64,000 nucleotides of DNA from Terriglobia bacterium. GTDB lineage: Bacteria; Acidobacteriota; Terriglobia; Terriglobales; Acidobacteriaceae. The stretch's first letter is position 1. Each line of letters opens with the position of its first letter. The DNA is taken from positions 248,001 to 312,000 of the forward strand of contig JAIQEU010000001.1 in assembly GCA_020073665.1 (NCBI GenBank). The letters are read 5' to 3'. Positions 15,065 through 30,348 of the stretch are shown here, piece by piece. A program made the position numbers and the translations under genes. The notes below the pieces were generated by a model that saw only the letters and a program-made list of their open reading frames with translations, was not told the origin of the DNA and made no database searches.

Positions 15065-16552
15065 GTGGCAAGTTTCTACGTCGAGAACTTCGGATGCCGG
15101 GCCACCCAGGCCGACGGCGCCGCCATCGAGCGGCAATTCCAGGAGCGCGGGTTGGACCGGGCCGACACTCCGGCCCAGGCCAAGGTGGTCGTGCTGAACA
15201 CCTGCACCGTCACCGCCGCCGCCGACCAGGACGCCCGCGCTGCCATTCGCAGGATTCGCCGTCAGAATCCCGACTGCCAGATCGTGGTGACCGGATGCTA
15301 CGCCCAACGCGCGCCGGAGGAAGTCGCGGCGCTGCCCGGCGTGAGTTGCGTGGTCGGGAATTCTCATAAACATCAGATTGCCGACCTCGGACTGCTGACC
15401 TCAGACCTCGGGCCTCAGGCGGCGAACCTCGAAACTCCGGCGCTTCAGCCAGCTCGGACCTTTGTCCCTCTGTCCAGCCTGACCCCGGCCATGCCGAGCC
15501 CAAGTTCCGAAGTCCAAGGTCTGATGTCCGACGCCCGAGGTCCGATTTTTGTTTCCGACATCTTTGCCCACACCGAACTGCTGGCCGCGCCTGTCTTCGA
15601 CGCGGCCAACCAGCGCACCCGTCCTAATCTCAAGGTGCAGGACGGCTGCGACAATCGCTGCTCGTTCTGCGTGATCCCCTACGTGCGCGGGCAGAGCCGG
15701 TCGTTGCCGCTGGCCCGCGTCCTCGACGAAGTGAACACGCTGGTCGCCGCCGGCTATCGCGAGGTGGTGATTTCGGGAATTAATCTGGGACGGTGGGGAC
15801 GAGAGGCAGTCGTCAGCCAGGGCGTCGGGGCGGCTGACGACGGAAGACTGATGACTGACGACCGTCGACTGACGACTCTCATTCACTCCATCCTCGCCCA
15901 CACCGCCCTCGAGAAGCTTCGCATCAGTTCGGTCGAGCCTATGGACTGGTCGGACGACCTGATTGCGCTGGTGGCCGGCTCGCCGCGCATTGCCAAGCAC
16001 GCGCATGTACCCATGCAGTCGGCGAGCGACCGCGTGTTGCGCGCCATGCATCGCAAGTATCGTCCGTGGCATTACCGGGAGAAGATTGAAAAGATCCGTG
16101 CCGCCATGCCCGCGGCGGCCATCGGCGCCGACGTGATGGTCGGCTTCCCCGGCGAATCCGACGCCGACTTCGAAGCCACTCGCCGCATGGTGGATGAGCT
16201 GCCGTTTACCTACCTGCATGTGTTCACCTACTCGCCGCGTCCCGGGACGCCCGCCGCCGCCCTGCCCGCGCAAGTCCCCGTCGAGCTCGCCCGCCAGCGC
16301 AATCGCGTCCTGCGCGAGTTGGCCGCGGAGAAGAAGCTGGCATTCATGCGGTCGTTTGTCGGCGAGACAGTCGAGGTCATCACGTTGAACCAGTCATCGG
16401 CCGGCTACACCGAGTGTCTCACCGACAACTATCTGAAGCTTCACCTGCGAGGACACCACGAAGCCAACCGCTGGCTGACGGCGCGGGTAGAGAGTGTGGA
16501 AGACGGCGCGATGTTCGGCACCTGCAGCAACCCCGAGGGTGCCCCATCCTAA
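15065..16552 (+). CDS. mtaB: tRNA (N6-L-threonylcarbamoyladenosine(37)-C2)-methylthiotransferase MtaB
   Basis: 495 residues from a GTG start. It has the N-terminal methylthiotransferase domain (ENFGCRATQADG, LNTCTVTAAAD, GCYAQR), the radical-SAM motif C195-DNR-C199-SF-C202 and a C-terminal TRAM-like region. MtaB converts t6A37 to ms2t6A37 in tRNAs reading ANN codons. It is longer than the usual 430-450 residues because of two inserted stretches (about residues 107-160 and 247-275) encoded by arrays of 7-bp repeats at 15383-15417, 15509-15543 and 15846-15880, all kept in frame. The last residues (EGAPS) and the stop lie in the left arm of a palindromic repeat. TATAGT at 15056-15061 just before the GTG suggests a very short leader or a slightly different start. 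Confidence 0.9.
   Translation: MASFYVENFGCRATQADGAAIERQFQERGLDRADTPAQAKVVVLNTCTVTAAADQDARAAIRRIRRQNPDCQIVVTGCYAQRAPEEVAALPGVSCVVGNSHKHQIADLGLLTSDLGPQAANLETPALQPARTFVPLSSLTPAMPSPSSEVQGLMSDARGPIFVSDIFAHTELLAAPVFDAANQRTRPNLKVQDGCDNRCSFCVIPYVRGQSRSLPLARVLDEVNTLVAAGYREVVISGINLGRWGREAVVSQGVGAADDGRLMTDDRRLTTLIHSILAHTALEKLRISSVEPMDWSDDLIALVAGSPRIAKHAHVPMQSASDRVLRAMHRKYRPWHYREKIEKIRAAMPAAAIGADVMVGFPGESDADFEATRRMVDELPFTYLHVFTYSPRPGTPAAALPAQVPVELARQRNRVLRELAAEKKLAFMRSFVGETVEVITLNQSSAGYTECLTDNYLKLHLRGHHEANRWLTARVESVEDGAMFGTCSNPEGAPS
15383..15417. repeat. 7-bp repeat array inside mtaB (GACCTCG type)
   Basis: Five consecutive 7-bp units (GACCTCG, GACTGCT, then variants). Seven is not a multiple of three, yet the reading frame stays open. 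The same type occurs between genes at 20268-20329 and 39868-39895. Confidence 0.75.
15509..15543. repeat. 7-bp repeat array inside mtaB (GAGGTCC type)
   Basis: Five units from GAAGTCC to GAGGTCC. Nearly the same unit order appears as non-coding DNA at 39868-39895 (GAAGTCC, GAGGTCT, GACGCCT, GAGGTCC). Confidence 0.8.
15846..15880. repeat. 7-bp repeat array inside mtaB (GACTGAC type)
   Basis: Five units alternating GACTGAC and GACCGTC-like forms, between the GINLGRWG strand and the LEKLRISSVEP segment of MtaB. Related arrays, in the opposite sense, lie at 52297-52378. Confidence 0.8.
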
Positions 16553-16581
16553 CGTCGTGGTTTTCGACGTTAGGGTGGGGT
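16536..16581. repeat. palindromic repeat overlapping the mtaB stop
   Basis: CCCCATCCTAACGTCG (16542-16557) pairs with CGACGTTAGGGTGGGG (16565-16580): a 16-bp stem preceded by GGGTG. The TAA stop of mtaB (16550-16552) is inside the left arm. Confidence 0.8.
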
Positions 16582-16634
16582 AGTTGACGTTGGTTTTGCA
16601 GTGCCTGTCTGCACCAGGCAGTTTGGAGAACACA

Positions 16635-16901
16635 ATGAAGATCGAGATTATCCACTGCCCCACATGACAGAACAACCAGGCCAAGGTCACGAGTCTCGTG
16701 ACCCTCATCAAGAAGCGCCTCGGCATTGAAGCCGTCCTTACGCCTGGTAAGACCGGCCAGTTCGAGGTGATCGCTGACGGCAAGAAAATTGCCGAGCGCG
16801 GTGGCAACTGGCTCACCCGCAGCTTTGGCGCCGGCTATCCCGACCTCGAGAGCGTGGTCGAGCAGATCGAGAAACACCGTGCCGGTGGCCCAGCGCGCTA
16901 G
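16635..16901 (+). CDS. SelW/Rdx-family selenoprotein (CxxU), UGA at codon 11 read as selenocysteine
   Basis: Read with TGA (16665-16667) as Sec, 88 residues result: MKIEIIHC8-P-T-U11, then a helix (VTSLVTLIKKRLGIE), GKTGQFEVIADGKKIAERGG and AGYPDLESVVEQIEK. This is the Rdx (SelW/SelT/SelH) thioredoxin-like pattern: beta1, CxxU, helix, then G-x-FEV-x-x-DG. After the UGA an 8-bp stem GGTCACGA (16685-16692) / TCGTGACC (16696-16703) with a G-first 3-nt loop sits 25 nt downstream, as expected for a bacterial SECIS. GGAG at 16625-16628 gives a 6-nt spacer to the ATG. Coding-like sequence continues through the UGA to the stop at 16899. The last ~6 residues come from a 50-bp tandem repeat. Role: probable thiol/selenol redox protein; selA/selB are not in the window. 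Confidence 0.85.
16685..16703 (+). promoter_or_regulatory. bacterial SECIS-like hairpin
   Basis: Perfect 8-bp stem, loop GTC, inside the reading frame, 17 nt after the UGA to the stem and 25 nt to the loop. Known bacterial SECIS elements have a short hairpin with a loop G within about 16-37 nt of the UGA, where SelB binds. Confidence 0.75.
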
Positions 16902-16980
16902 GCGCTTTGAAGGGGCACGGCTTCTGCCGCGCCGGTGGCCCACCGCGCTAGGCGCTTTGAAGGGGTGCGGCTTCAGTCGC
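16881..16980. repeat. 50-bp tandem duplication at the 3' end of the selenoprotein gene
   Basis: Two 50-bp copies, each opening GCCGGTGGCCCA and containing GGCGCTTTGAAGGGG; they differ at a few positions. The first copy supplies the last codons and stop of the selenoprotein gene. Confidence 0.8.
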
Positions 16981-17105
16981 GCCGTAGCCATGCAAAATGA
17001 ACGCGGCTTTAGCCGCTGGGGTTCGTCGCTGCCCCAGCATCTGGGCCTCTGGGGCTAAAGCCCAATTCATTATCTGCACTTAACGACGCGTCTAAAGCCG
17101 CGCCC
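16981..17105. repeat. GGCTAAAGCC-type interspersed repeat
   Basis: GAACGCGGCTTTAGCCGC, GGGGCTAAAGCCCAATTC and TCTAAAGCCGCGCCCTTTC words in alternating orientation fill the spacer up to the SRPBCC gene. A similar block (GCGGCTAAAGCC, CACGGCTGAAGCCGTGCCC) lies at 34356-34420. Confidence 0.6.
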
Positions 17106-17113
17106 TTTCAAAG

Positions 17114-17644
17114 CTAGCCCGGGTGTGCCGCCAGCCACTTCCGCAACTCGTCCCAATAATTCTCCTGCCACCCGCTGGCCAGATGCTCCGCCAGTTCCGT
17201 CGGGAACCCAGTGTGGTCCAGGACGACGCGTGTCCCTGCCCCCTTTGGGTTGAGCTCAAACCTCGCAATCGAATAAACCCCCTCCGGCCACGGCACCACG
17301 CGCCACGCCTGGACGATGCGCCGGTTAGCCACCAATTCCAGGTTGCGTCCAATGATGTGCCCCGCGAACAGCGAGAAGGCGGCGCCCACTACCGGGTTGA
17401 TCACGGCCACGCGCCCGCCAGAAAAATCCGTAAACTGCCTGGCGTCCAGCAGCGCTTCGTAGATGCGTTGCGGGCTGGCCGCGAAGTCTACTTCCTGATG
17501 GATGGCATTCACCGTAATGACTTCGCCAGCTTTCGCCGGCTTGTCCTGCGCGGCGGCGCGTCCCGCCAATGCCAGACTCCCAAGCGCCATGGCGCTGCTG
17601 GTGATGGCCTGCCGGCGGGTGAGGGTTGGGTGCGTGGGCGTCAT
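17114..17644 (-). CDS. SRPBCC (START-like / AHSA1-like) domain protein with Tat signal
   Basis: 176 residues. The N-terminus has a twin-arginine signal (LTRRQAI, then a hydrophobic stretch to about residue 33). The rest is an SRPBCC ligand-binding fold: HQEVDFAASPQRIYEALLDA, FSLFAGHIIGRNLEL, RIVQAWRV and the C-terminal helix ELAEHLASGWQ. This is the polyketide-cyclase/AHSA1-like group that binds hydrophobic ligands; the ligand is unknown. Tat export implies folding before secretion to the periplasm. The gene is convergent with the selenoprotein gene across a repeat-filled spacer. Confidence 0.85.
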   Translation of the reverse strand: MTPTHPTLTRRQAITSSAMALGSLALAGRAAAQDKPAKAGEVITVNAIHQEVDFAASPQRIYEALLDARQFTDFSGGRVAVINPVVGAAFSLFAGHIIGRNLELVANRRIVQAWRVVPWPEGVYSIARFELNPKGAGTRVVLDHTGFPTELAEHLASGWQENYWDELRKWLAAHPG

Positions 17645-30156: not shown

Positions 30157-30348
30157 AAGCCGACCTGCCAAGTTGGTGATGGTGGTAACCGATTTTTGAA
30201 CCAACACCGAATGAACGGGGGCCTGACTCGTAATCGATCCGGTGTGCAGTGCTCCGCCATGCGGAGATGCCTAAAGGGTCGCGGCGGGTTCCCATCGTCT
30301 AACGACGGGTTCATTCTCGGCCTACCACACGGCATAGCGGGTCGGCTT
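30157..30348 (+). ncRNA. ssrS: 6S RNA candidate
   Basis: The ends pair: AAGCCGACCTGC (30157-30168) with GCGGGTCGGCTT (30337-30348), 12 bp with one G-U. Inside, GGTGGT pairs with ACCAC, CCGAATGAAC pairs with GTTCATTC..GG, GATCC with GGGTC, and an apical CTCCGC-CAT-GCGGAG hairpin caps the rod. Length (~190 nt), the long rod with internal loops, the position right behind zapA and an own promoter all match 6S RNA, which mimics an open promoter and sequesters sigma70 RNA polymerase in stationary phase. The open-bubble sequence was not verified against a covariance model. Confidence 0.75.

Follow-up and report, generated by a model that had tools for sequence, protein, structure and literature searches.

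The window analysed here is a stretch of 64,000 nucleotides from a Terriglobia bacterium (contig JAIQEU010000001.1), and it holds a short gene on the + strand that is interrupted by an in-frame TGA. The features of this locus, each with the evidence on which it was assigned, are the following:

16625 to 16628, + strand: Shine-Dalgarno-like GGAG, 6 nt upstream of the ATG (read from the sequence)
16635 to 16901, + strand: SelW-like (Rdx) selenoprotein gene, 88 residues, with a predicted selenocysteine (Sec) at residue 11 (translation with TGA as U, Pfam Rdx match, 17-row alignment)
16656 to 16667, + strand: CPTU redox motif, CxxU (of the 123 phylum matches, 121 have Cys8 and 117 have TGA at position 11)
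16665 to 16667, + strand: predicted Sec-encoding UGA codon (present in the window and in all 15 distinct relatives aligned)
16685 to 16703, + strand: predicted bacterial SECIS hairpin of 8 bp with loop GUC at 16693-16695 (fold energy and covariation)

The frame opens with the ATG at 16635, passes through the TGA, continues for 77 more codons and closes with TAG at 16899-16901. With UGA read as U, the product is MKIEIIHCPTUQNNQAKVTSLVTLIKKRLGIEAVLTPGKTGQFEVIADGKKIAERGGNWLTRSFGAGYPDLESVVEQIEKHRAGGPAR, with a calculated mass of about 9.6 kDa. The initial annotation had described a coding sequence that is preceded by a Shine-Dalgarno element, completes a C-P-T-U motif with a UGA at codon 11 and runs through it to a proper stop, and each of these elements was indeed located, with GGAG standing six bases before the start codon and recurring at most 16 nt from the ATG in 9 of the 16 relatives tested. 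It had further expected a fragment starting near 16698, and the mechanical list of open reading frames (ORFs) yields exactly this for the frame, namely only a GTG-started fragment of 67 amino acids at 16698-16901. Since the list gives this 67-codon fragment and the family scores fall below the curated cut-offs (see below), the gene would probably be missed by standard tools. In the alignment of the window protein with 16 relatives (17 rows), the protein is conserved on both sides of the TGA, and M1, C8 and residue 11 are invariant.

The surroundings of the gene were also inspected. Promoter and terminator scans of 16400-17150 gave no result on the + strand. An inverted repeat, CCTAACGTCG / CGACGTTAGG, lies at 16543-16580, at the end of an upstream 495-aa ORF, which we take to be methylthiotransferase-like, and ahead of the selenoprotein gene. 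This repeat might act as a terminator between the two, and was not listed by the terminator scan. At the other end, a 50-bp tandem duplication, 90% identical (16877-16976), overlaps the last codons of the gene, so that the C-terminal tail RAGGPAR comes mostly from its first copy. Inverted repeats with CGCGGCTTTAGCCGC-type arms, downstream of the gene at 16996-17102, look like a small intergenic palindromic element, and a 6S RNA (59.4 bits) is located at 30159-30347 of the window. As for synteny, a search for five neighbouring genes in 49 loci with short flanks (L024-L072) found no conserved neighbour: three of the five match only L044, which is the window's own locus, and the other two lie outside the L044 flank and have no match in the 49 loci. 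Because the flanks are short and two neighbours lie beyond that of L044, this tests synteny at short range only.

We then compared the product with known families. It matched Pfam Rdx (PF10262) with an E-value of 2.6e-4 over positions 1-73 of the 74 in the profile, at 21.6 bits against a cut-off of 22.6, and it scored 19.6 bits on TIGR02174 (cut-off 34.2) and 19.8 bits on NF041051 (cut-off 88). The protein had been called an unrecognised member of the SelW/Rdx family, which is fair in the sense that its scores lie below the family cut-offs. Among the 17 aligned proteins, 12 matched PF10262 at E 0.001 or better, the best at 3.5e-19, and 8 matched TIGR02174.

The structure of the window protein was predicted by AlphaFold2 from its sequence and those of 12 relatives (mean pLDDT 84.4, pTM 0.74). 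In this model, read together with the translation, Cys8 and UGA11 come directly after the strand formed by residues 3-7, and the placement of CxxC/CxxU just after the first strand is a defining trait of the SelW-like/Rdx family. When the model was searched against the PDB with Foldseek, seven entries accounted for all 22 matches with an E-value of 0.001 or better. Of these, 2fa8 and 2p0g bear the title selenoprotein W-related, 2obk is titled as putative Se-binding and 2npb is mouse SelW; the titles of 2oka, 2ojl and 3dex give just a gene name, and these three are presumably Rdx proteins. Thioredoxins rank after these seven, with weaker E-values. The predicted fold is shared with the six SelW-related structures other than the mouse protein at E 9e-5 to 7e-4 and with TM-scores up to 0.72 by query length, whereas the sequence identity to them is 18-24%; it is shared with mouse SelW, which we take to carry CxxU, at E 5.8e-4. 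A sequence profile search recovered the same seven entries, from E 2.1e-4 (2fa8) to 0.87 (2npb), together with MIEN1 (2ljk, listed as C17orf37) at E 6.5e-4, and unrelated chains appeared among its weaker rows. The fold predicted by the model is thus the Rdx thioredoxin-like one, matching SelW-related structures.

The codon at position 11 was followed across relatives at three levels. Of 200 genomes searched at the order level, 8 had a match, counting the genome of the window itself. Seven of these 8 matches carry one TGA at the CxxU site, and the eighth (in genome G173, 31% identity) has Phe there. All 12 named loci from the genome collection, two of which repeat order-level loci, have UGA in CxxU; by their titles, eleven come from the phylum (Acidobacteria, Terriglobia, Thermoanaerobaculia and similar) and one is just "bacterium". 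The phylum search covered 396 genomes, 107 of which had a match, and all 123 matches listed were read. Since its profile carried Cys at the UGA position, the search was not tuned to find UGA. As a result, TGA was found at position 11 in 117 of the 123, a count of sequences and not of independent events because the members are related, and TGC or TGT within CxxC in 4, all of them CTQC proteins (L073-L076). The initial annotation had proposed a comparison with Cys-containing homologues and had named homologues with a stop codon in place of Cys or Sec as evidence against its reading; what these matches show is the TGA itself, conserved within the motif, beside four Cys forms, and the reading is not refuted by them. 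One other match, L152, is cut by a contig end, and another, L162, is a decayed-looking copy with internal TAG and TAA, which aligns with TGC at position 11 and is not counted as a CxxC homologue because it has Phe at position 8. The UGA form occurs in 103 of the 396 sampled phylum genomes, about a quarter, and no plasmid copy of the gene matched at E 1e-3.

We also examined the RNA downstream of the UGA. The sequence GGTCACGA-GTC-TCGTGACC at 16685-16703 forms a stem of 8 Watson-Crick pairs (16685-16692 with 16696-16703), 17 nt separating the UGA from the hairpin and 25 nt separating it from the loop. The perfect 8-bp hairpin with a G-first loop, earlier placed 25 nt past the UGA, is therefore confirmed, the 25 nt being the distance to the loop. 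The bacterial SECIS (bSECIS) model described in PMC13188914 has a loop of 3-9 nt with G in its first two positions, a stem of 4-16 bp, a spacing of 16-37 nt and an energy of -7.5 or lower. The window hairpin agrees with this model, having a 3-nt loop that begins with G followed by U, a stem of 8 bp, a spacing of 25 nt and an energy of -11.1 kcal/mol. The energy of the 19-nt hairpin was equalled by 1 of 200 shuffles, and that of the 39 nt following the UGA (-12.1 kcal/mol) by 4 of 200; the fold of a 66-nt stretch stands out less (z -1.41, a value matched by 15 of 200 shuffles). Synonymous recoding of the same amino acids, with codon frequencies taken from 31 long ORFs that were picked mechanically in the window, produced a stem of at least 8 pairs in 2.7% of trials. 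The single hairpin is therefore moderate evidence, and it is the comparison of relatives, not the lone hairpin, that decides the SECIS question.

For this comparison the window was set beside 15 relatives, which makes 16 distinct sequences in all. The stem cells are paired in 96.9% of cases, with 4 of 128 unpaired, and 4 of the 8 pairs have changed on both sides, in 11 cells, which none of 500 shuffles reached. Four of the five covariation measures gave 0 of 500 in this way, and the fifth, which concerns further pair types, was reached by 83 of 500. As a control, the partners were slid by 1-3 columns, and at most one pair then changed on both sides; the other 4 of the 8 pairs never vary and are uninformative by themselves. 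A chance hairpin was rejected on the covariation of the stem, despite the 2.7% of recodings and the unexceptional 66-nt fold. Third-position conservation is 0.91 in codons 17-23 versus 0.70 in codons 29-81, and residue 20 is Ser in 14 of the 16 sequences, encoded in all of them by AGT, which makes up 9% of the Ser codons in the long ORFs of the window; the other two sequences have Arg.

In the phylum as a whole, a stem of at least 7 pairs (G-U allowed) follows the UGA in 76 of the 117 UGA genes. The next stretch of these genes has such a stem in 13 of 116, and shuffling the codon order yields one in 5.2% of cases. The remaining 41 of 117 gave no 7-pair stem in this simple ungapped scan, and may have shorter or bulged elements that lie outside it. 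The loop is GTC in 57 of the 76 stems. Among the 74 stems whose loop holds GT, its spacing from the UGA is 22 nt in 54, 25 nt in 13 and 21 nt in 7, and the 22-nt and 25-nt spacings, which differ by one codon, go with two subfamilies whose proteins differ correspondingly by one residue.

A Sec pathway in the organism had been implied by the initial annotation, to which the absence of selA, selB, selC and selD would be contrary evidence, and all four are present. The genome of the window (5.42 Mb, 62 contigs, completeness 100) contains one strong tRNA-Sec match of 70.6 bits, which ARAGORN identifies as tRNA-SeC (anticodon TCA); Rfam gave two further matches above its cut-off, a tRNA-Ser and a tRNA-Leu. 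SelA scores 533.2 bits, SelB 383.5 bits and SelD, whose two pieces were summed, 350.1 bits, in each case over the curated cut-off, and the selD gene (L018) has its own in-frame UGA, in the stretch GUASKL, so that the genome holds at least one other predicted selenoprotein gene. The four genes lie on four different contigs, which we counted against the reading. In the order set, selA exceeds the cut-off in 7 of 7 UGA-form genomes versus 88 of 200 overall (Fisher p 0.0028), and in the phylum set, at E 1e-40 or better, in 98 of 103 versus 154 of 293 others (p 2e-17), both p-values ignoring relatedness. The 293 include the four Cys-form genomes, in all of which selA is present. It was not found in five of the 103 UGA-form genomes (G242, G273, G315, G323 and G374), of which three are 64-75% complete and two are 99-100% complete.

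These data bear on three other explanations of the locus. Since TGA is one base from the Cys codons TGC and TGT, the gene might be an ordinary CxxC gene with an acquired nonsense mutation, that is, a pseudogene or a sequencing artefact. However, the same TGA in 117 of 123 phylum matches speaks strongly against this, as do the conservation of the protein on both sides of the TGA and the covarying hairpin behind it, and we regard such an origin as extremely improbable. It is likewise very unlikely that the true gene is the 67-codon ORF from the GTG at 16698, with the UGA undecoded: although this is the ORF that the mechanical list gives, it would leave out the first strand along with the CxxU motif, it begins inside the hairpin, and M1, C8 and residue 11, all upstream of it, are invariant in the 17 aligned rows. 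Finally, the UGA could stand for a different amino acid, through an altered genetic code or unspecific read-through, for which no support was found in these analyses; UGA ends 14 of the 31 long non-overlapping ORFs chosen mechanically in the window, the Sec tRNA and Sec pathway genes are present, and 4 relatives have CxxC instead, which leaves this reading hardly credible.

It is almost certain, in our estimate, that the gene encodes a genuine SelW-like selenoprotein (Rdx, SelT/SelW/SelH), decoded by SelB and Sec-tRNA via a bacterial SECIS. Computation established the gene itself, the conservation of its UGA, the covariation of the hairpin, the presence of the pathway genes and the predicted fold. 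From the known pathway and family we infer Sec insertion, SelB binding and the redox role, as follows: SelA, with selenophosphate from SelD, would make Sec-tRNA(Sec); SelB with Sec-tRNA(Sec) would recognise the hairpin with the GUC loop, which spans nucleotides 18-36 downstream of the UGA; and SelB would deliver Sec at codon 11, giving the C-P-T-U redox site just past the first strand. By analogy with the family, the protein is probably a small thiol/selenol oxidoreductase, with a possible link to glutathione.

The gene very probably belongs to an already known bacterial family of SelW-like selenoproteins (Rdx, PF10262; TIGR02174 CXXU_selWTH), with which it shares the CxxU, the in-frame UGA and the predicted bacterial SECIS after the UGA. 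It differs in that the window protein scores 1 bit under the Pfam cut-off and well under those of NCBIfam, and in that the phylum mostly has the GUC triloop. SelW-like selenoproteins were described in the Sargasso Sea in 2005 (PMC1088965) and in bacterial genomes in 2006 (PMC1794560), and in a GOS table of 2008 they are the family with the most sequences, 427 Sec versus 56 Cys forms (PMC2398784). The earlier description of this protein as unrecognised holds as regards its scores, but a bacterial SelW-like selenoprotein as such is not new. PMC1794560 counts SelW-like proteins among the families for which Sec-containing organisms have hardly any Cys homologues or none, and the scarcity of Cys homologues here is the pattern that it names. 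According to PMC1088965, the function of SelW-like proteins is unclear, CxxU suggests a redox role, and an interaction with glutathione was found; eukaryotic SECIS elements lie in the 3' UTR and not in the coding region, which sets mouse SelW apart from the window gene. For Acidobacteria, 3 families with 4 selenoproteins were counted in 2006 (PMC1794560), and Occallatibacter riparius has 3 known selenoprotein genes (PMC12013277). Full-text literature searches found no explicit report of a SelW-like selenoprotein for the phylum in the text accessible to them, nor, within the same scope, did term searches of PMC1794560, PMC2398784, PMC5029168, PMC12013277 and PMC13188914, so that no priority is claimed here. 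Since the gene is of a known kind, what is added is a well-supported SECIS and a survey of how widely the gene occurs in the phylum.

This gene leaves the broader understanding of selenium biology as it was. What it does suggest is that, within a bacterial phylum, routine gene prediction and family thresholds can overlook a redox selenoprotein even when it is conserved, and the covarying SECIS set could serve to test SelB recognition. We also put forward, tentatively and at somewhat less than even confidence, that SelW in this phylum is an almost purely Sec lineage with a largely uniform SECIS, in which the GUC triloop is kept, the stem covaries and the spacing is specific to the subfamily. 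If this is true, the RNA element and the SelB of the phylum would be tightly co-adapted, and Sec would not be easily replaced by Cys in this phylum.
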